From Methanolinea sp. (GTDB lineage Archaea > Halobacteriota > Methanomicrobia > Methanomicrobiales > Methanospirillaceae), in the NCBI GenBank assembly GCA_030019395.1, contig JASEES010000010.1, positions 1-48,344 of the forward strand: a stretch of DNA of 48,344 bases, read 5' to 3'. The notes beneath the pieces are model-generated. The model saw only the letters and a list, made by a program, of their open reading frames with translations. It did no database searches and was not told where the DNA came from. The translations under genes and the position numbers were made by a program. This document shows positions 22,161 through 34,340 of the stretch, piece by piece. Position 1 is the first letter of the stretch. Each line of letters starts with the position of its first letter.

Positions 22161-23155
22161 AAGTTGCCATCCTCGGCATGGGGTCGGTTGGAAAGGGCCT
22201 CATGCAGGTCATCAGCGAGAGGGATCTCGGGCTCGTGGTCACTGCGGTTGCTGATTCCCGGAGTGCCATCATGGACAGGGACGGGATAAGCATCGATGAG
22301 GTGCTCGAAGCAAAGAGGTTACGCGGGTATTGTGGGGACACGTCCCTCTCCGCAATGGACGTTGTCACGAAGGGCACATACGACGTCCTCGTCGAGGTCA
22401 CACCCACGAATGCACTCACAGGTGAACCGGGTCTGTCCCACATCCTCGCCGCCCTTGACAGGGGACGCCACGTTGTCACATCCAACAAGGGACCCATTGC
22501 CCGGGAATACGAACGTCTCAGGCGTTGCGCCGCGGAAAAGGGGGTCCTCCTCCGGTACGAAGCCACGGTAGGGGGGGCGATTCCCATCATCCACACCCTC
22601 GAGCAGGGACTGGCAGGAAACAGGGTGCTTGCCATATTCGGGGTCCTGAACGGGACGTGCAACTACATCCTCTGCCGGATGGCTGCCGAGGGTCTCTCCT
22701 ACGAGCAGGCACTCCTCGAGGCACGCGAGATGGGGTATGCCGAGGCGGATCCAACCTACGATGTCAAGGGTATCGACCCTGCCATCAAGCTCGTCATCCT
22801 TGCAAATACATTCTGGAAAAAGCCCGTCCAGCTCGAGGACGTCGAAGTCACGGGGATCGACATGCTCACGAACGATGCCCTCCGCCTCGCCGAGGAACAG
22901 GACTGCACCATCCGGCTGATTGCCGAGGCAATTCCTGACAGGGGTATCCTCCGGGTCGCCCCACGTCTCCTTCCCCTCTCCCATCCGCTGGTCGTGGACG
23001 GGACACTGAATGCCATCACCATTGAGACAGACATGGCAGGAGAGATCACGCTGATAGGCAAGGGTGCCGGGTCGGTCGAAACGGCAAGCGCAATCATCGG
23101 TGACCTCCTGTATATCCGGGATTTCCATGAGGGGCGTCATAAGAAAACGCCGTGA
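22157..23155 (+). CDS. hom: Homoserine dehydrogenase
   Basis: A 332-residue NAD(P)-dependent homoserine dehydrogenase, the branch step to threonine and methionine. The Rossmann GMGSVGKG lies at 7-14, VEVTPT (about 79-84) and SNKGPI (about 109-114) mark the substrate-binding region, and GVLNGTCNYI and YAEADPTYDVKGIDPAIK are the catalytic signatures. It has no C-terminal ACT domain; that function seems to sit in the preceding gene. The two genes overlap (ATGA), and the HTH-TiaS-like gene overlaps its end by 29 bases. Confidence 0.95.
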   Translation: MKVAILGMGSVGKGLMQVISERDLGLVVTAVADSRSAIMDRDGISIDEVLEAKRLRGYCGDTSLSAMDVVTKGTYDVLVEVTPTNALTGEPGLSHILAALDRGRHVVTSNKGPIAREYERLRRCAAEKGVLLRYEATVGGAIPIIHTLEQGLAGNRVLAIFGVLNGTCNYILCRMAAEGLSYEQALLEAREMGYAEADPTYDVKGIDPAIKLVILANTFWKKPVQLEDVEVTGIDMLTNDALRLAEEQDCTIRLIAEAIPDRGILRVAPRLLPLSHPLVVDGTLNAITIETDMAGEITLIGKGAGSVETASAIIGDLLYIRDFHEGRHKKTP

Positions 23156-24242
23156 GTTCCTCAAGCTGATGCGGGCCTGCACGGTTGACCGTGGCTACTT
23201 TACCGTGACAGACATCCAGAAACAGGCCGGAGTCCCCCGGAGTACCGCGCAGGACTGGATTAACCGTCTCCTCGATGAAGGATGCGTTGTCCTGAAGGAA
23301 CGGAAGCTGGGCCGGAACCCGGCGAAGTATGCTGCCATCAGTGCACTTCCCTCGAGTGCCTGCAGGCGGATATTCACGACCGTCGATGGGGACAGGGTCG
23401 AGATTTACCACGAGTGCATGAGCAATGCGTGTGCAGCCTTTTGTGCATACCACCATTCGCGCGCGGGCGGCGTTCTCGAGGACGTGATGAGGGACGGCCC
23501 GCTTCTCCGTGAAAGGGCCCATCTTGGACAGAGCAGGATCGAGATCGGGCTCCATCCTGCCTCCGCGGTCGGGGTCGCAGGGGTCGAGAGAGAGGGAAAC
23601 GACATCATACAGCACATCCGGTGCATTGGCGGGCCGGCGTATTCCCTCACCGACATGATGGCGAAAGCCGAAGGCGTCTGCGATGTGAAAATCCAAAAAA
23701 GCGGCGGGCTGGTGGAAGGGAGCGTGAGGACCCGTGCCCTCGTTCACCTGGTCATCGGTCTCGATGACACGGATTCCCGTGAAGGAGGTGCCACTTTTGC
23801 CATGGCCCTTGCACTCCTCCAGCACCTCGAGACCCTCAAAGGGGTGCTTCCCATCAGCCACCACATCGTAATGCTCAATACTGCCATCCCCGAGAAGACA
23901 ACAGGCAACTCATGCAGTTACATCGAGATCGCAATTCCTCCCGAAAGATACGAGGATGTCCGGAACAGGGCACTCGTATTCATCCAGGACGAGTCGCTTT
24001 CGCCCGAATGGGGTATGGCGTTCCGAAGAGGTTTTTCGATTCCCGGGATTTTTCGTACCTTCGGATCGAAGGCACGCAGCGGGGTAGTTGATGAAAAAGA
24101 GGCTGAATCGGTTGCTGCAGAAAACGGTGTGGAGCTCTTCGGGGGAAGGGGCAGGATCGGTGCCCTTGCTGCAATAGCCCTTTCAGGCCTGCCCCACGAG
24201 ATCCTCCTCCGTCCCTTTGCCCCGATCCCACCCGGGAGTTAA
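23127..24242 (+). CDS. HTH protein fused to a TiaS-like/DUF1743 domain (methanogenesis marker 11-like)
   Basis: A 371-residue protein. Residues 10-75 look like a winged helix-turn-helix (TVTDIQKQAGVPRSTAQDWI). The C-terminal half contains GLDDTDSREGGATFAMALAL and the later GMAFRRGFSIPGIF and FGGRGRIGALAA segments, the pattern of DUF1743/TiaS proteins and of methanogenesis marker protein 11. TiaS makes agmatidine in tRNA-Ile2; the marker protein is of unknown function but is restricted to methanogens. Cysteines near residues 110-120 (ECMSNACAAFC) could bind metal. ATG at 23127 is chosen; a longer frame upstream lies inside hom. It overlaps hom by 29 bases, so it is in the same operon. I am sure of the DUF1743 plan, less so of the marker-11 name. 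Confidence 0.72.
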   Translation: MRGVIRKRREFLKLMRACTVDRGYFTVTDIQKQAGVPRSTAQDWINRLLDEGCVVLKERKLGRNPAKYAAISALPSSACRRIFTTVDGDRVEIYHECMSNACAAFCAYHHSRAGGVLEDVMRDGPLLRERAHLGQSRIEIGLHPASAVGVAGVEREGNDIIQHIRCIGGPAYSLTDMMAKAEGVCDVKIQKSGGLVEGSVRTRALVHLVIGLDDTDSREGGATFAMALALLQHLETLKGVLPISHHIVMLNTAIPEKTTGNSCSYIEIAIPPERYEDVRNRALVFIQDESLSPEWGMAFRRGFSIPGIFRTFGSKARSGVVDEKEAESVAAENGVELFGGRGRIGALAAIALSGLPHEILLRPFAPIPPGS

Positions 24243-26996: not shown

Positions 26997-27032
26997 TTTT
27001 GTGACCATTTTCATGGGAGTGGAGGTTTGCAG

Positions 27033-27806
27033 GTGACCGGGTCCAATCATGATCAGGGCGATAAACAACGTTATATCCAGATCTGTACTTCGGAACGTGG
27101 ATTGAAGGCCATCGACAGCCCTCTCAAGGGGCAGATACTCGAGATGCTCGAAGCCGGTGAGATGGACTTCGAGGAGATCGTGACCCGGACAGGGAAGGCC
27201 AAGTCAACCATTTCCGTTCACCTCAAGGCGCTCAGCGAGGCAGGCATCACCGTCTCACGTCCCGATCCTTCGGATGCACGCCGCCGGCTCTTCTCCCTGA
27301 ACGGGAGAATCCTCATCCGGACCCTCGCCCTCGACCGTGACATGAAATGGGCCGACAATTTCTTCCCCGACAGGCTGCCCCCGGATGCAACGACCCGGGA
27401 CGTCTTCAGCTTCATCCTCACCGCGCTCCGCGTAAGCCTGATATCAGACGGGATCGAGATACATCCCATCCTTTCCCAGGCAGGGCGCCGGGCGGGAAAG
27501 GCAATCTACCACCTCGTCGAGGACGACGACACGCTTTCCTTTTTTTCCCGCATCTCGTGCTTCTGGGAGAAGTTCGGGCTTGGAAAGATGGAACTCGAGC
27601 GGGATGACCCCTTCACCATCGTCATCCGCGACTGCTTCGAATGCATGGACCTCCCCCTGACGGGAAAACCTGAATGTTCATTCGGGGGTGGTGTGCTCTC
27701 GGCCCTCTTTTCTGCACACCACGGCGAGGCCCGGGAAGCCATCGAGAAGAATTGTTATGCAACCGGGAGCAACCTCTGTCGGTTCGAAATCTGGAACGCA
27801 CGGTAA
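27033..27806 (+). CDS. ArsR-like HTH regulator with V4R domain
   Basis: A 257-residue regulator. Residues 20-85 contain a winged helix (LKGQILEMLEAGEMDFEEIV and GKAKSTISVHLKALSEAGIT, then the wing SDARRRLFSLN). After a linker, residues 120-257 form a V4R (4-vinyl reductase) domain ending in FECMDLPL and CYATGSNLCRFEI, a pattern of spaced cysteines that may bind metal or a small hydrophobic molecule. GTG at 27033 is chosen because GGAGG is seven bases upstream; a TTG at 27027 is too close to that site. It is the likely ligand-responsive member of the divergent regulator pair. Confidence 0.85.
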   Translation: MTGSNHDQGDKQRYIQICTSERGLKAIDSPLKGQILEMLEAGEMDFEEIVTRTGKAKSTISVHLKALSEAGITVSRPDPSDARRRLFSLNGRILIRTLALDRDMKWADNFFPDRLPPDATTRDVFSFILTALRVSLISDGIEIHPILSQAGRRAGKAIYHLVEDDDTLSFFSRISCFWEKFGLGKMELERDDPFTIVIRDCFECMDLPLTGKPECSFGGGVLSALFSAHHGEAREAIEKNCYATGSNLCRFEIWNAR

Positions 27807-28085: not shown

Positions 28086-28250
28086 TCCATAATTATGTGA
28101 CTGGTCTTTCCGGATTAAATCATTGCCACCTCACTTTACGTTATTTTTGCGCTCCCGTTTCTCGTTGCATAACTGCACGAAATGAGAAAAAAAGCCAATA
28201 AAGCCAGATGCCACTTTTTTTTATCGTAAAAATATTATTCTGCGCAATTA

Positions 28251-28258
28251 TTATATAC
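28251..28258 (+). promoter_or_regulatory. TATA box before the structured leader
   Basis: TTATATAC stands in an AT-rich block. A start about 25 bases downstream, at 28280-28290, would place the first hairpin of the leader (from 28289) at the very 5' end of the RNA. Confidence 0.5.
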
Positions 28259-28288
28259 ATGGAGATTTAATAGAAATGTGCCATATAT

Positions 28289-28376
28289 GAGGGTCTGGTG
28301 AGAAAGACCAGTCTGATGACCCTGTAACCTTCAGCACCAGCAGGGTCAATGGCATCCCGAAGACCGGGTGAGATAA
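28289..28376 (+). ncRNA. Structured 5' leader with competing hairpins before a 59-codon gene
   Basis: Three hairpins can form: GGTCT/AGACC (28292-28296 with 28305-28309), GACCCTG/CAGGGTC (28318-28324 with 28341-28347, loop 16) and CCCG/CGGG (28356-28359 with 28365-28368). AGGGTC occurs twice, at 28290-28295 and 28342-28347, and both copies can pair with the single GACCCT at 28318-28323; only one pairing can exist at a time. The third hairpin covers GGTGA at 28367-28371, the ribosome binding site five bases before the ATG at 28377. That combination of alternative pairing and hidden ribosome binding site is how a riboswitch or attenuator works. I do not recognise a known riboswitch consensus. 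Confidence 0.5.
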
Positions 28377-28556
28377 ATGGTGAGGAATGTCAACCAGGAA
28401 GACCAGGGGCAGGAGAATGTTGCTGACTGTTCGCCACCTTTCAGTCAGGCACTGCCGGATGGTGATGATTCCCTCCTACGAATGAAGATCCTTGAGAAAC
28501 TTGACACTGAGGATGTACGGGATGTCTTAAAAGGCCTGCATACCGGACCTTTGTAA
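28377..28556 (+). CDS. 59-residue hypothetical protein behind the structured leader
   Basis: A short reading frame from ATG at 28377 to TAA at 28554-28556, preceded by the ribosome binding site GGTGA (28367-28371). The protein is acidic and polar in its first 35 residues (many Asp, Glu, Gln), then has a probable helix LLRMKILEKLDTEDVRDVLK and the end GLHTGPL. There is no membrane segment and no family that I recognise. The codon use is as in neighbouring genes. It is the first gene after a well-placed promoter and structured leader, which is the main support that it is translated; the leader could instead serve trkH. Confidence 0.5.
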   Translation: MVRNVNQEDQGQENVADCSPPFSQALPDGDDSLLRMKILEKLDTEDVRDVLKGLHTGPL

Positions 28557-28595
28557 CTTCATATATGGTATCTTTTCTGCTTTTTATGGCAGGAA

Positions 28596-28625
28596 GGGGC
28601 TGACCGGGAGACATACTACAGCCCC
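28596..28625 (+). other. Stem-loop in the leader of trkH
   Basis: GGGGCTG (28596-28602) and CAGCCCC (28619-28625) form a perfect seven-base stem with a 16-base loop, in the roughly 190-base gap between the 59-codon gene and trkH. A T-rich CTGCTTTTTATGGCAG just upstream may end the preceding transcript. The rest of the gap shows another GC-rich repeat (CCCGGG, 28626 region) but no gene. Confidence 0.35.
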
Positions 28626-28743
28626 CCGGGTCCCCGGGAACAGCCTGAACTTGACCCTCCTTTTCTTGCACCCTTCCCACGGCATGGGGGCTCTGCCAAC
28701 CGGGGAGAAACAAGATAACATCGTCCACCAAACGTGATCCATC

Positions 28744-30216
28744 ATGAAGAGGCTGGAGACCCTGGCCATCATCGCCCATGACATGGGGGCCATCTTCGAG
28801 TTCCTCGGTTTGATCACTCTCCTGCCCTTCCTCGTGGTGGTCGTATTCGGGGAATGGGACATGTTTCTGCCGATGGTTTCGGTCCCCCTCACGTTCGGTC
28901 TCCTTGGCCTACTCATCTCGCATATACCCCGGAAGGAGTACGTGCCGCAGCTCTCGGTTGCCCTCACCGCGGTTGCACTCATTTGGGTAGCAGTTGCCCT
29001 GATCGGGAGCTTTCCCTTCGTTTTAGGGATGCATATGAGCTGGACGGACAGCATCTTTGAGTCGATGTCAGGGTGGACGGGGACAGGTTTTTCAGTCATC
29101 GATAATCTGGATACGACTCCCAAGACTCTCCTCTTCTGGCGATCGTTCATGCAGTGGCTCGGGGGTATCGGGGTCATTGCCTTCGGTATCGCGATGCTTT
29201 CCCGGTCCGGGCTGACCCAGCACCAGCTCTACCGGGCCGAGGGGAGATCAGAGGATCTCATGCCAAACGTCGTCTCCACGGGAAGGAGGATGTGGGTGAT
29301 TTATGTCTTCCTCACCGTGGTGTTCACAGGCATGGTCATGTTTGCAGGAATACCCCTGTGGGATGCCCTCAACCTCGTCATGGTCAGCCTTGCTACGGGA
29401 GGTTTTTCCCTCCATAATGCGGGTGTTTCCTACTACGATAATGCCCTCCTCGAGATCCTCCTCATCCCTGTCATGCTTGCAGGTGCACTGCCCTTCAAGC
29501 TCTATTTCCTGATATACAGGGGAAAAATACGGCCGTTTCTCCAGGACCGCGTGGTCTGGCTCATCCTCTTTCTCGCCCTTGCCGGATCTCTGATCGTCAC
29601 CATCGACCTGCACCTCTTCAACGGCCTTCCCCTTGAAACAGCCGTCCGCCAGGGCTTTTTCTGCACGGTATCAGGCCTTACGTGCTGCGGGCTGCAGAAC
29701 TCGAACCTCCAGTGGATCGCCTCGCCCCTCATCATCATCAGTCTCCTCATGATGATCGGGGGGGCTGCCGGAAGTACATCGGGGGGTATCAAGGCAAACC
29801 GTGTCATCCTTGGCTACGAGGGTCTCGTATGGTGGTTCAGGCGTTTCTTCTCGCGGGGCAGGGTCATTGTTCCCTTCCGGCACGAGGGCCGGGCCATCCC
29901 GAGGCGGATATCTGACGTGGAACTCTCCAAGAACATGCTGATCATTGTCCTTTATGTCCTGACCATCTTTCTTGCAACGGTCATCAGCCTGCACCTTGCA
30001 CCAACCGGGTTTAGGACGCATCAGGTCATCTTCGAGGAAATATCCGCGATGAGCAACGTCGGGCTCGGACTCGGATACCTGACTCCGGCAAGCCCGCTCC
30101 CGATCAAATGGGTCTTCATCTTCCTGATGTGGACAGGCAGGCTCGAGATCATCCCGGTTCTCATCCTTGCCATGGGGCTGATCCGGGGATTCGAACCCCG
30201 GATAAAGGGGAAATAG
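28744..30216 (+). CDS. trkH: Trk/Ktr potassium uptake protein, channel subunit
   Basis: A 490-residue K+ channel-like subunit with four MPM units. The pore loops each keep the selectivity glycine: SGWTGTGFSV (about 109-118), LATGGFSLH, SGLTCCGLQN and SNVGLGLGY. GGAAGSTSGGIKANR is the conserved TrkH intramembrane loop. The start ATG is preceded by GTGATC, which complements the archaeal 16S 3' end. No TrkA/KtrA partner lies nearby, so one must be elsewhere. It follows a long leader with a stem-loop. Potassium import at the expense of the membrane potential fits the ion-handling theme of the window. Confidence 0.93.
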   Translation: MKRLETLAIIAHDMGAIFEFLGLITLLPFLVVVVFGEWDMFLPMVSVPLTFGLLGLLISHIPRKEYVPQLSVALTAVALIWVAVALIGSFPFVLGMHMSWTDSIFESMSGWTGTGFSVIDNLDTTPKTLLFWRSFMQWLGGIGVIAFGIAMLSRSGLTQHQLYRAEGRSEDLMPNVVSTGRRMWVIYVFLTVVFTGMVMFAGIPLWDALNLVMVSLATGGFSLHNAGVSYYDNALLEILLIPVMLAGALPFKLYFLIYRGKIRPFLQDRVVWLILFLALAGSLIVTIDLHLFNGLPLETAVRQGFFCTVSGLTCCGLQNSNLQWIASPLIIISLLMMIGGAAGSTSGGIKANRVILGYEGLVWWFRRFFSRGRVIVPFRHEGRAIPRRISDVELSKNMLIIVLYVLTIFLATVISLHLAPTGFRTHQVIFEEISAMSNVGLGLGYLTPASPLPIKWVFIFLMWTGRLEIIPVLILAMGLIRGFEPRIKGK

Positions 30217-30294
30217 GTTCCACCGCAACCTCTTCCTTCTCTCCCTGCAGGCCACCACCGGACAGGAATCTCCCCCCCTATCAAAACGCCCTGA

Positions 30295-30311
30295 TTGGCG
30301 TTGAATGCCAA
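30295..30311. promoter_or_regulatory. Inverted repeat upstream of the Eha-Fwd promoter
   Basis: TTGGC and GCCAA are five-base arms around seven bases (30295-30311), just upstream of the AT-rich ATATTAT promoter stretch and 53 bases before the first Eha start. The placement is that of a regulator binding site; which regulator is unknown. Confidence 0.45.
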
Positions 30312-30315
30312 AAAC

Positions 30316-30325
30316 AAAATATTAT
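30316..30325 (+). promoter_or_regulatory. Likely TATA box of the Eha-Fwd operon
   Basis: AAATATTATT in an AT-rich block (30310-30326) lies about 40 bases before the ATG at 30364 and is the only promoter-like sequence before the first of the overlapping Eha genes. Confidence 0.45.
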
Positions 30326-30363
30326 TCACCTTCAGCCCTAATCCCTAATACGTTGACGGCCCG

Positions 30364-30861
30364 ATGGATACCGTTCTCCTGACCACCGTGCATATCCTGG
30401 TTGCAGCAGCCGTCTGCTGGCTCAATTTTATCACGATAGATATGTTCTTCAAGCTCCCCGAAAAAGGGGGGGTTGTCGGGGCCACTGCCATCGCCCGGCA
30501 CATCGAGGCCGGTGGAGGATCGCTGGAAGGTGGCACGATGATGGGGAACATCGTCTCCTCGCCCGACGCATCTGCAGGCACTCTCCTTGCTGCCTGCGGA
30601 GTCTTCATTGCAGGCATCCCCGGCGGACTGCTGGCAGCACTCCTCGTCTTCATCGGTAACCGCATCTGCCACGACAGGGGATATGCAGGGACGACGGGCT
30701 GCCTGACGGCAACCTTTCTCATCTATGGGTTCACCCTCGCCGGGTTCTCTGCCGCGGAGTTCATCGCCGGGATGGTGATTGCAATCCTGTCCATCCAGGG
30801 AATATCCCACGTGTACGCAAGCAGGCTTCTTTCCACGATATGGAAGGTGAGGTGGGGATGA
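30364..30861 (+). CDS. ehaB: Energy-converting hydrogenase Eha, EhaB-like membrane subunit
   Basis: A 165-residue membrane protein with three or four hydrophobic segments (residues 5-28, 75-97, 105-160). It is the first gene of a long overlapping operon whose later genes are unmistakably Eha. Its size and its position just before the EhaC-like gene match EhaB of Methanothermobacter. The glycine-rich loop GATAIARHIEAGGGSLEGG between the first two segments is distinctive. No EhaA-like gene precedes it. The subunit belongs to the ion-translocating membrane arm. It overlaps the next gene (ATGA). Confidence 0.75.
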   Translation: MDTVLLTTVHILVAAAVCWLNFITIDMFFKLPEKGGVVGATAIARHIEAGGGSLEGGTMMGNIVSSPDASAGTLLAACGVFIAGIPGGLLAALLVFIGNRICHDRGYAGTTGCLTATFLIYGFTLAGFSAAEFIAGMVIAILSIQGISHVYASRLLSTIWKVRWG

Positions 30862-31112
30862 CACCGGCCGATATGGCACTGGTCCTCTGCGGGACAGTTG
30901 CCCTGTACGCAGGTGTTCGTGTTGCGCTTGAACCGGACACTCTCCGGAAACTTCCCTTCCTCAACGTGCTCTCCTTTGCGATCACGGGTCTCATCGCGCT
31001 CCTCCTGCCCCACCCCCTGGGTATCGTGGCTGCCGCGGCCTACTTCGTCGGGTCGACGCTCGAATCAAACGCCATTGCAAGCACGTATGCCGGGGGTCTC
31101 GATCGCGGATGA
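30858..31112 (+). CDS. ehaC: Eha membrane subunit C-like (DUF2109-like)
   Basis: An 84-residue protein with three hydrophobic segments. Its size and the position between the EhaB-like and EhaD-like genes match EhaC. The start ATG at 30858 overlaps the preceding stop by four bases, and the frame could only be extended by six codons to 30840. This small subunit is part of the membrane arm; it has no catalytic residues and the name rests on order and size. Confidence 0.7.
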   Translation: MTPADMALVLCGTVALYAGVRVALEPDTLRKLPFLNVLSFAITGLIALLLPHPLGIVAAAAYFVGSTLESNAIASTYAGGLDRG

Positions 31113-31339
31113 ATGAAACAGTCATCGTCGTACTTGCAGCCCTGGCCGTGCTGGGGTGCGTCCTTGCCATCCGGGAAAGCGATCCGTACCGGAAACTGAT
31201 AGCGCTCTCGCTCATCGTCGGCGGGACCATCCCCTTCATCGTGGACAGGGGACTCCTCGACGTGGCCATTGCCGTGGCACTCATCTTTCCCCTCTCGACC
31301 ATTTTCATCCTGATGGCATGCCCGGGGGGAGAGCCATGA
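31109..31339 (+). CDS. ehaD: Eha membrane subunit D-like (DUF2108-like)
   Basis: A 76-residue protein with two hydrophobic segments joined by a short polar loop (AIRESDPYRKLIALSLIVGG), resembling the MnhC/MrpC-like part of energy-converting hydrogenases. It overlaps both neighbours by four bases. The name EhaD is based on size and gene order. Confidence 0.7.
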   Translation: MNETVIVVLAALAVLGCVLAIRESDPYRKLIALSLIVGGTIPFIVDRGLLDVAIAVALIFPLSTIFILMACPGGEP

Positions 31340-31575
31340 CCCCCGAGTTCCTCATCGGGCTGTTCCTCATCCTCGCAGGTACAGTGGGGACTGCCTTTCC
31401 AAAGCCGAAGACCTACCTGAACAGGCTGATCAACCTCGAGATCCCGGGGATTGGAATACTCCTCGTGATGCTCTCGTATAACGAGGCACTCGCCCTTTTG
31501 ACATACGGTGGCGTTTCTGCCCTGAGTGTCTTCATCTTCGTCAGGGTTCTCCAGAAGAGGGAGGGAAAAACGTGA
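31336..31575 (+). CDS. ehaE: Eha membrane subunit E-like (DUF2107-like)
   Basis: A 79-residue protein: a first helix (IGLFLILAGTVGTAF), then KPKTYLNRLINLEIPGIGI, a polar loop seen in EhaE, then two hydrophobic stretches. The ATG at 31336 overlaps the preceding stop (ATGA); a longer open frame upstream is a shadow of ehaD. Part of the membrane arm of the hydrogenase; order and size support EhaE. Confidence 0.72.
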   Translation: MTPEFLIGLFLILAGTVGTAFPKPKTYLNRLINLEIPGIGILLVMLSYNEALALLTYGGVSALSVFIFVRVLQKREGKT

Positions 31576-32021
31576 TCATCCAGAAAATATCACGGATCCT
31601 CTCCAACTACGACAACATTCTCCCCCTCTTTGCCGGGGCATGTGCAATCCTCGCTGTCATTGCACTCCTCTCTCTTCCCCTCCCCTATTTCGAGGACCAG
31701 CTCTATCCCAAGCAGATCGTCCCGGGCAGCACACTGAACCCCTATGACAGGGGCGGCCCGCCGTTCACGCAGGCTGACATCAGGCTCCAGTACCCGCAAA
31801 ATTCGCCAACGGCAGGCTACGTGACTGCATACCTCACCCCCTTCTCGCTCTTCCTCTCCCGGACCACGATGTACATGGGCACGACGATTGTTGCACACCC
31901 GGGCGGCATCCTCGACGAAATCCTCTACAACACGCGGGGGCTTGACACTGTGGTCGAACCGACAATCCTCTTCATCTCGTTTGCCATCGCTGCCTACATA
32001 TTCCACAGGCGGGAGGACTAG
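31572..32021 (+). CDS. ehaF: Eha membrane subunit F-like (DUF2106-like)
   Basis: A 149-residue membrane protein beginning with GTG at 31572, which overlaps the ehaE stop. One hydrophobic segment lies at residues 20-42, a second near 85-105, and a third at 128-145. Between them is a proline-rich external loop (YPQNSPTAGYVTAYLTPFSL). Size and order match EhaF. It is a membrane-arm subunit without recognised catalytic residues. Confidence 0.72.
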   Translation: MIIQKISRILSNYDNILPLFAGACAILAVIALLSLPLPYFEDQLYPKQIVPGSTLNPYDRGGPPFTQADIRLQYPQNSPTAGYVTAYLTPFSLFLSRTTMYMGTTIVAHPGGILDEILYNTRGLDTVVEPTILFISFAIAAYIFHRRED

Positions 32022-32024
32022 GAG

Positions 32025-32630
32025 ATGGCATGGAATGAGTACTCATTCGGTCTCCTCGTCGTCTTCCTCGCTGCCCTTGTTGGATTCATGGCACTCGCAC
32101 GGGAACGCGATGACCTGCACAAGCTCCTCCTCGTCGATCTCGTGGAGGTCGCCTCGATCGCCGTCATCGCACTCCTCGGGACCGACCTTGCCGAGGCACT
32201 CATCCTGCCGGGACTTGTCGTCGGTATCGCCGAGCTCCTCGCCCTCTCGCAGCTCTACATCGCCAAGGAGGGGCTCGCAGGTGTTCCCCCAAGGGGGCTC
32301 AACATCGAGGTCGTGCAAAAGTCCCCTGCAACCGTGATCATCCCCGGTTTCCTCGTCGTTTACGGGATCGTCCTCTCGGGGTTCACGGGCGGGGGGATCG
32401 CTGCCCTCGGCCTCGTCTTCTACTTCATGAGCCACAGGTTCCTCGGCGACTTCCACGTGCTGGAACTCGCGAGCGGGATCTCCTGGGCACTCTGGGTCGC
32501 AGCGTTCTTCGTCTTCATGTTCGCGCCGGCGTTCTGGTTCCTGGCGCTGATGGGAGCTGCGGTCGGCATCCTCCTCAAGGTTATCACGAAAATTTCGCTC
32601 GTGGGAGTCATGTGGGGTGAGGCGGAATGA
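32025..32630 (+). CDS. ehaG: Eha membrane subunit G-like (DUF2105-like)
   Basis: A 201-residue membrane protein with five or six hydrophobic segments. It contains ALARERDDLHKLLLVDLVEV, a charged loop resembling the MnhB/NuoJ-like regions of energy-converting hydrogenases. Only three bases separate it from the preceding gene and its stop overlaps the next start by four. The EhaG name rests on size and order. Confidence 0.72.
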   Translation: MAWNEYSFGLLVVFLAALVGFMALARERDDLHKLLLVDLVEVASIAVIALLGTDLAEALILPGLVVGIAELLALSQLYIAKEGLAGVPPRGLNIEVVQKSPATVIIPGFLVVYGIVLSGFTGGGIAALGLVFYFMSHRFLGDFHVLELASGISWALWVAAFFVFMFAPAFWFLALMGAAVGILLKVITKISLVGVMWGEAE

Positions 32631-33283
32631 ACGAGATCGGCGGCGTTCCCCTCTTCTTCCTCGAGTTCGGGGACATCGTGGCATATTTCTCCCCCTTCAC
32701 GCTCACGCTGTTCCTCCTGGCGCTTGTCTTCTCGGTCTTCGTGATCGTCAGCCGCCCGGAACGGCAGATCGACATCGCGTTCGGGGCGGATGCCTTCTTT
32801 GCCAAGGAGATCTCCCTCCCGGAGCTCCGGTTCCGCAGGTTCATGGCAATTGCCTGCGGTTTGGCGTGCATGGGCGCAATGGTCACGGGAGACGTCTTCG
32901 ATTTCACCCTCTTCGTCTCGCTCGTCGGGATCTGCAACGTCGGTATCGTCGCCGCGGTCAGGACTTACCATGTCCAGGACGCCGCCTACCAGTACGGCCT
33001 CGTCGCCCTCGCGGGAACTGTTCCCCTCTTTTCTGCCGCTGCCATTGTTGCCGCAACGACCGGGACCCTCTCGATGCTTGAACTGGCGTCTCCAGCGGCC
33101 CCGGCCGTTCCACTGATTGCCCGTGCCCTCCTTGTCCTCGGGGTGATGGGAGAGGGCATGGCACCTTTCTACGCGGCAAAGGCAGAGATGTTCCGGGCAC
33201 CCGGGGCTCCGTACGTGATCATGTGCTCGCTCTCGTCCCTCCTGATATTCCTCCGGGTCACGGAGGTGGTCCTCCTCCTATGA
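32627..33283 (+). CDS. ehaH: Eha membrane subunit H-like
   Basis: A 218-residue protein with about six hydrophobic segments, related to the antiporter-like subunits of complex I but shorter. The polar segments FGADAFFAKEISLPELRFRR and GVMGEGMAPFYAAKAEMFRA include Lys and Glu residues inside or beside membrane helices, as expected of an ion-translocating subunit. It overlaps both neighbours. The assignment to EhaH follows from its place directly before the small EhaI- and the NuoH-like EhaJ gene. Confidence 0.75.
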   Translation: MNEIGGVPLFFLEFGDIVAYFSPFTLTLFLLALVFSVFVIVSRPERQIDIAFGADAFFAKEISLPELRFRRFMAIACGLACMGAMVTGDVFDFTLFVSLVGICNVGIVAAVRTYHVQDAAYQYGLVALAGTVPLFSAAAIVAATTGTLSMLELASPAAPAVPLIARALLVLGVMGEGMAPFYAAKAEMFRAPGAPYVIMCSLSSLLIFLRVTEVVLLL

Positions 33284-33495
33284 CGCCTCATGTGAAGAAG
33301 TCCCAGGCACTCGCCGTGGCAGTGGTATCTGCCCTGGCAGGGATCGCTGTAACCCTCCTTACCCTCGCGGGGGTGCTGCCACCCCATGCAGATGCCGCAG
33401 CCTGGGTCATCGCGTTCCCGGCCTTCGTCCTGGGACTGTACCTGTACTGGATGGCCCGGGAAGGAGACCCGGACATACCGTTCGTGGGGTACTAG
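33280..33495 (+). CDS. ehaI: Eha membrane subunit I-like
   Basis: A 71-residue protein with two hydrophobic segments (residues 10-30 and 42-60) and a polar C-terminus, EGDPDIPFVGY. ATG at 33280 overlaps the preceding stop; an upstream start at 33223 would add a proline-rich tail that is a shadow of the preceding gene. Position between EhaH and EhaJ supports the name; no independent signature is visible. Confidence 0.68.
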   Translation: MTPHVKKSQALAVAVVSALAGIAVTLLTLAGVLPPHADAAAWVIAFPAFVLGLYLYWMAREGDPDIPFVGY

Positions 33496-33497
33496 CA

Positions 33498-34340
33498 ATG
33501 ATCGGCGAGCTCCTCTTCGGGACGGTCTTCGGGCTCCTCCTGCTGGGTATCCACCGGAAGGTCATTGCACGCATCCAGAGGAGACCGGGGCCCCCCGTCT
33601 GGCAGGAGATCCTGCACATGCTCAAGTTCTCCTTCAAGACGACGTGGGTCCCTGCGACTGCGAGTGCTGCCCTCTTCGTCGGGGTGGTCCTGGTCGCGAT
33701 CGGAATATGGACAGCCGCGCTTTTCGTCGTCCTCTCGGGTGAGAGCCTCCTCATCATCTTTGCCGTCTACATGCTCCACAAGATCGTGGAACACGGGTTT
33801 GGGCTCTCATCCGGGTCACCCTACGGGAAGTTCGGCGGAGTCCGGTCTGTCATCTCGGCCGCGTCCGAGATCCCCCTCTTCGTGAGTGTGGCGGCGATTG
33901 GACTCTTCACCCGTTCCCTCATGATATCAGACATCGTCGCGTACCAGGAGGTGCATGGGCCGCTCCTCCTCACGGTGCCCCTCGCCGGCCTGGCAATGTA
34001 CCTCGTCGTCCTCTCCAAGATGCCTTTTGGCCCGTTCTCCATCGTCGAGAGCAAGGAACTGGTCAGCGGGTACAAGACCGAGCACTTCGGTGTCTGGCGG
34101 GCAGGCCTCGAGGTCTGCAACGGGTTAAAGACGTACGTCCTGCTCACCACGTTCCTGCTGGTCTTCGTGGGGTCTTTGCCGTTTCTCCTCCTGCTCCTCG
34201 GCATGGTGGTCCTCACCGTGTCGCTCTCATTTGCGTGTGCACTCTGCCCCATGCTCTCGCCGTACGACAGCGTGACAGTCCAGACGATCATTGCAGGCCT
34301 GATGCTCGCCTACGTCAGCATCCTGGTGGTGATGCCATGA
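33498..34340 (+). CDS. ehaJ: Eha subunit J, NuoH/HyfC-like membrane anchor
   Basis: A 280-residue integral membrane protein of the NuoH/HyfC family that anchors the catalytic module to the membrane and takes part in ion translocation. Family features are visible: HRKVIARIQRRPGPP near the N-terminus (the GPP motif), MPFGPFSIVESKELVSGYKT with a conserved Glu and the SGYKTE segment, and about eight hydrophobic segments. This subunit is the firmest marker that the membrane genes are an energy-converting hydrogenase. Confidence 0.9.
   Translation: MIGELLFGTVFGLLLLGIHRKVIARIQRRPGPPVWQEILHMLKFSFKTTWVPATASAALFVGVVLVAIGIWTAALFVVLSGESLLIIFAVYMLHKIVEHGFGLSSGSPYGKFGGVRSVISAASEIPLFVSVAAIGLFTRSLMISDIVAYQEVHGPLLLTVPLAGLAMYLVVLSKMPFGPFSIVESKELVSGYKTEHFGVWRAGLEVCNGLKTYVLLTTFLLVFVGSLPFLLLLLGMVVLTVSLSFACALCPMLSPYDSVTVQTIIAGLMLAYVSILVVMP

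Follow-up and report, generated by a model that had tools for sequence, protein, structure and literature searches.

A conserved structured RNA with an embedded small open reading frame next to trkH in Methanolinea-type archaea

Our analysis of a 48,344-nucleotide stretch of Methanolinea sp. DNA, referred to here as the window, makes it highly probable that the + strand encodes a conserved structured RNA and that the open reading frame (ORF) within it is under selection in four genera, a joint claim founded on sequence comparison. A preliminary description of this locus had proposed a riboswitch-like leader of 88 nt at 28289-28376 whose layout fits none of several riboswitch classes. A conserved structured RNA was indeed found there, and Rfam contains no known family that matches it. 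A compact leader aptamer was not borne out; the conserved element is ~290 nt long and continues through the ORF. The 88-nt leader is the 5' third of this ~290-nt RNA and is not a switch on its own. The RNA and its elements are located as follows.

28279-28570, + strand: 292-nt conserved structured RNA whose two ends probably pair to close it (model R1, covariation, G-U/A-C bias)
28279-28290, + strand: 5' strand of P1a, UGCCAUAUAUGA, invariant in 24/24 sequences and able to pair with 28559-28570
28291-28297, + strand: 5' strand of P1b, which holds most of the first AGGGTC repeat and pairs with 28544-28550 (94% of cells; two double-changed pairs)
28319-28346, + strand: P2 hairpin with arms 28319-28325/28340-28346 and loop AGCACCA (97.6% of cells paired; two double-change events)
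28378-28386, + strand: 5' strand of P4, lying over the start codon, with 28489-28497 as its partner (7 of 9 pairs double-changed; six events)
28423-28448, + strand: P7 hairpin with arms 28423-28429/28442-28448 and C-rich loop UUCGCCACCUUU at 28430-28441 (5 of 7 pairs double-changed; six events)
28469-28486, + strand: small P8 hairpin with UUCCCUCCUACGA, invariant in 24/24 sequences, the codons Ser-Leu-Leu-Arg being without synonymous change
28489-28497, + strand: 3' strand of P4, in ORF codons 38-41 (comparative structure)
28544-28550, + strand: 3' strand of P1b, in the last codons of the ORF (comparative structure)
28559-28570, + strand: 3' strand of P1a, UCAUAUAUGGUA (comparative structure)

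The full unit at 28279-28570 folds better than shuffled sequences in the window (z = -2.98), and the full RNA of a relative folds much better than its shuffles (z = -5.15). The comparative structure consists of 65 pairs in 24 aligned sequences, with L002, the near-twin of the window genome, left out of the alignment. In this structure, 90.7% of the cells pair, compared with 86.7% in column shuffles and 34-42% with slid partners. Changes on both sides were observed in 22 pairs (shuffles, 14.0; slid structures, 6-11), and double-change cells numbered 78, against 29.6 in shuffles; none of the 500 shuffles reached 22 such pairs or 78 such cells. Because kinship inflates double-change counts, the changes were also reconstructed on a tree built from the unpaired columns only. 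Eighteen double-change events keep a pair on this tree, as opposed to 0-4 with slid partners, and they are distributed over P4 (6), P7 (6), P2 (2), P5 (2), P1b (1), and P6 (1). The G-U cells outnumber the A-C cells by 151 to 37, which indicates that the + strand is the RNA.

P4 and P7 are the best-supported helices. The coordinated changes of P4 among genomes include TGGTAAGTA/TACTTGCCA, TGACAGGC/GCCTGTCA, and TAAGCAGG/CCTGCTTA, and this helix is weaker in the window itself than in the relatives. The loop sequence UCGCCACCUU of P7 is invariant in all 24 sequences, as is the loop AGCACCA of P2. Invariant columns are uninformative on pairing, and P1a and P8 vary too little for covariation, so that the invariance of P1a is by itself no proof of UGCCAUAUAUGA/UCAUAUAUGGUA pairing. 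Two copies of CATATATG, at 28282-28289 and 28560-28567, mark the limits of the block and are placed so that its ends can pair. The ends of the RNA probably pair with each other through P1, which is less firmly supported, and we regard P5 and P6 as weakly supported candidate helices. Another helix, P3 (28351-28358/28519-28526), looked good in the window and was rejected with 0 double-change events and 13 breaks on the tree. The 4-nt loop of P8 displays CUA, which is also the codon that the neighbouring divergent tRNA-Leu(UAG) decodes; this may be a coincidence.

The strings on which the preliminary description was built were read directly from the sequence: AGGGTC at 28290-28295 and 28342-28347, GACCCT at 28318-28323, and GGTGA at 28367-28371. 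The gene announced at 28377 is also present, its ATG opening a 59-amino-acid ORF that ends at 28556. Both AGGGTC copies had been suggested to compete for the single GACCCT, and conserved pairing in related genomes was sought for these helices in the 24 sequences. The second helix (28318-28323/28342-28347), which is P2, is kept in 97.7% of the cells; the first (28290-28295/28318-28323) is not, as its two inner pairs fail in 13/24 and 12/24 genomes. The conserved partner of the 5' AGGGTC repeat is the 3' end of the RNA, with GGGTCTG at 28291-28297 facing CGGACCT at 28544-28550 (94% of the cells). The hairpin thought to cover the ribosome binding site (CCCG 28356-28359/CGGG 28365-28368) is lost as well, with only 44 of 88 cells pairing. 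The idea of a hidden gene start survives in another form: conserved pairing does cover the beginning of the small gene, but the helix responsible is P4, which the preliminary description did not contain. The leader alone (28283-28400) is no more stable than expected from shuffling (z = -0.76), with 45 of 200 shuffled sequences folding equally well. It is therefore extremely improbable that 28289-28376 is a compact riboswitch in which two helices exclude each other and the ribosome binding site is hidden; the repeats exist and one of the two helices is conserved, but the competing helix and the ribosome-binding-site hairpin are not, the leader lacks unusual stability, and the conserved element is three times longer.

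The coding elements of the locus overlap the fold described above.

28367-28371, + strand: GGTGA, candidate Shine-Dalgarno sequence of the small ORF (from the sequence; not covered by a conserved local hairpin)
28377-28556, + strand: ORF of 59 amino acids without Pfam or NCBIfam match (synonymous fraction, codons 19-59)

Among the genera g1, g8, g10, and g13, the synonymous fraction of changes in codons 19-59 was 0.42, compared with 0.21 in permuted columns, and none of 300 permutations was as high. In codons 36-59 of the same genera, the fraction was 0.50, compared with 0.19. This excess of synonymous change in codons 19-59 shows that the protein is under selection in these four genera. No signal of protein-level selection was found in codons 2-18. 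A search of Pfam, NCBIfam, and the PDB yielded no relative of the 59-amino-acid product, and its predicted model, with two C-terminal helices, is of low confidence (mean pLDDT 61.6).

Two lineages depart from this pattern. In the fifth genus, g15, nine genomes have the RNA; neither the open nor the interrupted frames show a protein-level signal, and in at least one of these genomes an early stop truncates the ORF. The invariant loops are retained in g15, and P4 still covaries despite the unconstrained ORF. Conversely, P2 and P8 have disappeared from genome G006, a member of the same genus as the window, and the C-terminal protein sequence is kept there. The codons over the P7 and P8 elements (Ser-Pro-Pro-Phe and Ser-Leu-Leu-Arg) occur in one form only, frozen at synonymous sites; their conserved neighbours K37, I38, L39, K41, L42, and R48 use two to four synonymous codons. 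The frozen loop codons and the lineage contrasts indicate that the RNA and protein constraints overlap and are separable by lineage. Covariation, retention in g15, and the frozen loop codons argue together that the RNA structure is selected independently of coding.

These observations bear on a simpler view, that the transcript is the mRNA of the 59-amino-acid protein with a cis-acting fold controlling its own translation. A ligand, a protein, or temperature would open P4, and the invariant loops would be the receptor of the signal. The protein-level selection in four genera agrees with such a control element, as do the pairing of the start codon with codons 38-41 in the strongly covarying P4 and the persistence of the ORF in G006 beyond two RNA elements. 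We nevertheless consider it somewhat unlikely, as the nine RNA-bearing genomes of g15 combine an unconstrained ORF, with at least one early stop, with invariant loops and a covarying P4.

When all 4227 Rfam families were compared with the window, the neighbouring tRNA was the sole match, and the best other hit over the region had E = 7.4. Seven relatives searched against Rfam at permissive thresholds gave nothing either. The RNA is a new family, unlisted in Rfam. The archaeal RNase P RNA and SRP RNA resemble it in size, in their single copy, and in their ends, which are probably paired in the present RNA. In contrast to these RNAs, it has no Rfam match in the window or the seven relatives, and whereas RNase P RNA and SRP RNA are universal, it is confined to five genera. 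It shares with riboswitches and leader RNAs, such as the crcB/fluoride, ydaO/c-di-AMP, SAM, TPP, and cobalamin classes, the character of a conserved structured RNA near a transporter gene. Unlike these classes, it shows no Rfam match at a useful score, has a length of ~290 nt with an ORF inside, and is apparently transcribed as a separate unit. A C/D box guide RNA was considered and rejected: UGAUGA occurs in the leader of the window and is absent from that place in the relatives.

Using the covariance model R1 of the whole RNA, we found it in 26 of 232 Methanomicrobiales genomes (E <= 1.2e-23), all within five Methanolinea-related genera of one family; nearly all of the genomes are metagenome assemblies of one family. 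The invariant-core pattern matches 24 genomes, and the ORF profile matches 27, one of them weakly. With 28240-28560 as the query against related genomes, many genomes of the same family yielded the whole block, including the promoter. The public records that carry this core belong to Methanolinea and other Methanoregulaceae and are mostly metagenome-assembled; a single actinobacterium record with this core is apparently a chance match. Possible distant homologues elsewhere in the order, namely weak matches in G215, G206, and G198, were also taken as chance; none lies near a tRNA, and the match in G215 is antisense inside a protein gene. No homologous RNA was seen upstream of trkH in the genomes without a model match. 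The RNA thus appears to be found only in Methanolinea-type methane-producing archaea (Methanoregulaceae). It is present as a single copy per genome at a conserved location, which speaks against a mobile element with terminal inverted repeats.

The RNA usually lies between a divergent tRNA-Leu(UAG) and trkH, with the tRNA gene upstream in nearly all scanned loci and trkH downstream in most genomes examined. Downstream of trkH, the window carries Eha-type energy-converting hydrogenase genes (DUF2108, DUF2106, DUF2105, NADHdeh_related, and NADHdh) within 28744-34340, so that the RNA stands at the start of what may be a potassium transporter and hydrogenase cluster. The relative G026 has two tandem trkH-like genes of 486 amino acids downstream of the RNA (L102:1856-4840). 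On the other side, the gene at 27027-27806 scores above the cutoff for the methanogen redox regulator MsvR (NF053755) and adjoins the tRNA-Leu and the RNA. Farther away, the ORF at 23064-24242 combines a helix-turn-helix region with a TiaS TCKD-like domain, an unusual pairing of regulator and tRNA-modification domains.

The following elements flank the RNA.

28225-28244, + strand: imperfect palindrome with the consensus CGCARAATTATTATTYTGCG, a candidate operator immediately 5' of the TATA box, conserved ahead of every copy of the RNA
28251-28257, + strand: TATA box TTATATA, conserved in all copies
28571-28597, + strand: U-rich 3' hairpin CUUUUCUGCUUUUU..GCAGGAAGG, a candidate terminator or second domain, in all copies with the pairing partly kept
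28653-28666, + strand: C/U-rich tail element, conserved as GACCCUCCUUUUCU or, in the fifth genus, as ACCUCCUAAACCCCUUCACUUU; a possible 3' end

The TATA box and the palindrome are at a fixed distance among the copies, and the half-sites of the palindrome carry matching changes in some genomes. At up to three mismatches (<=3), the palindrome occurs essentially at this locus only in the nine genomes searched (two weaker extra sites in all; control 0), and no palindrome regulon was found in these genomes. We infer that the RNA is transcribed from the palindrome/TATA promoter at 28225-28257, with the start predicted at ~28276-28281 from the usual archaeal TATA-to-start distance. With the tail, the RNA is possibly ~390 nt long, extending to about 28666. 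The g15 version of the tail element at 28653-28666, AACCTCCTAAACCCCTTCACTTT, is able to pair with GTGAAGGG upstream of it, an arrangement suggestive of a second domain or a terminator.

In the window, trkH starts 174 nt past the RNA, and the spacer ranges from ~180 to 650 nt between genomes. A TATA-like motif, AAGATAWT, is located 25-33 nt before the trkH ATG, suggesting that trkH probably has its own promoter. The connection with trkH made in the preliminary description thus holds for position, while the variable spacer and this motif speak against a shared transcript. The same two features make it very unlikely that the RNA is a long 5' leader or attenuator of a trkH-eha operon that senses an ion or the redox/energy state and terminates in the U-rich 3' hairpin, and no RNA of this kind precedes the trkH homologues of other genera. 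This possibility draws on the RNA-trkH order kept in most genomes examined, the Eha-type hydrogenase genes after trkH, and the U-rich hairpin directly 3' of P1.

We propose, at a confidence a little short of even, that the locus encodes an independently transcribed structured RNA that is dual-function in most of its range and acts by an antisense mechanism. In the folded state, P4 would close the start codon of the ORF. The same molecule would be a regulator or, once P4 opens, the message for the 59-amino-acid protein. The C-rich loops (CCACCU, CCCUCCU, and CCUCC) would base-pair with the ribosome binding sites of target mRNAs. The exposed invariant C-rich sequences are UCGCCACCUU in the P7 loop, UUCCCUCCUACGA in P8, and AGCACCA in the P2 loop, together with ACCUCCU or ACCCUCC in the tail. 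On a by-eye reading of short motifs, they may resemble the anti-Shine-Dalgarno end of 16S rRNA, which would make pairing with ribosome binding sites the simplest mechanism.

No convincing targets emerged when the full complements were sought near start codons by pattern matching. The complement of P8, CGTAGGAGGGAA, was not enriched over the control, and its exact matches were mainly the locus itself. The sequence AGGTGGCG near ATG reached only ~1.4 times the control, and the P2 complement near ATG was rare. The lack of clear mRNA targets in these searches fits a non-coding scaffold or decoy that binds a protein, either as a ribonucleoprotein or as an RNA titrating a regulator, with the loops as protein sites rather than antisense seeds. 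Long invariant loop stretches, the multi-branched architecture, and the single copy per genome are also in keeping with it. However, such a scaffold leaves the selected ORF unexplained and its binding partner is purely putative, and we judge it unlikely.

To our knowledge, the structured regulatory RNAs described from archaea are few, and archaeal dual-function RNAs are only beginning to be proposed. In bacteria, RNAIII, SgrS, and Spot 42 are dual-function small RNAs. The present RNA is like these, and like the archaeal sRNA154, in that conserved structure and a small ORF reside in one RNA; RNAIII additionally has C-rich loops, as here. It differs from them in that the ORF crosses the core of the fold and the start codon lies in a covarying helix. 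It is unrelated to them in sequence, and its own targets are hypothetical. sRNA154 of Methanosarcina mazei has been proposed as dual-function, among small RNAs carrying small ORFs (PMC11456600). sRNA162 of the same species masks a ribosome binding site, pairing over the predicted site (PMC3510493), which is the action proposed here for another archaeal small RNA. sRNA162 uses a single-stranded linker, whereas the present RNA would use hairpin loops in an interaction that is only proposed.

It is possible, and we suggest this only tentatively, that the locus represents a new class of dual-function RNAs in archaea, characterised by a coding sequence interwoven with the multi-branched core of the structured RNA. 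Translation would then have to unfold the regulator, and folding would have to close the start codon; one lineage would have kept the RNA without protein constraint, and another the protein while shedding two RNA elements. This study adds an unlisted RNA family beside a potassium transporter and energy-converting hydrogenase cluster. The RNA without a constrained ORF in nine genomes, and the ORF with a reduced RNA in one, provide a natural separation of the two functions. The question of how one molecule may serve as both RNA and protein message is thereby made directly testable at this locus.
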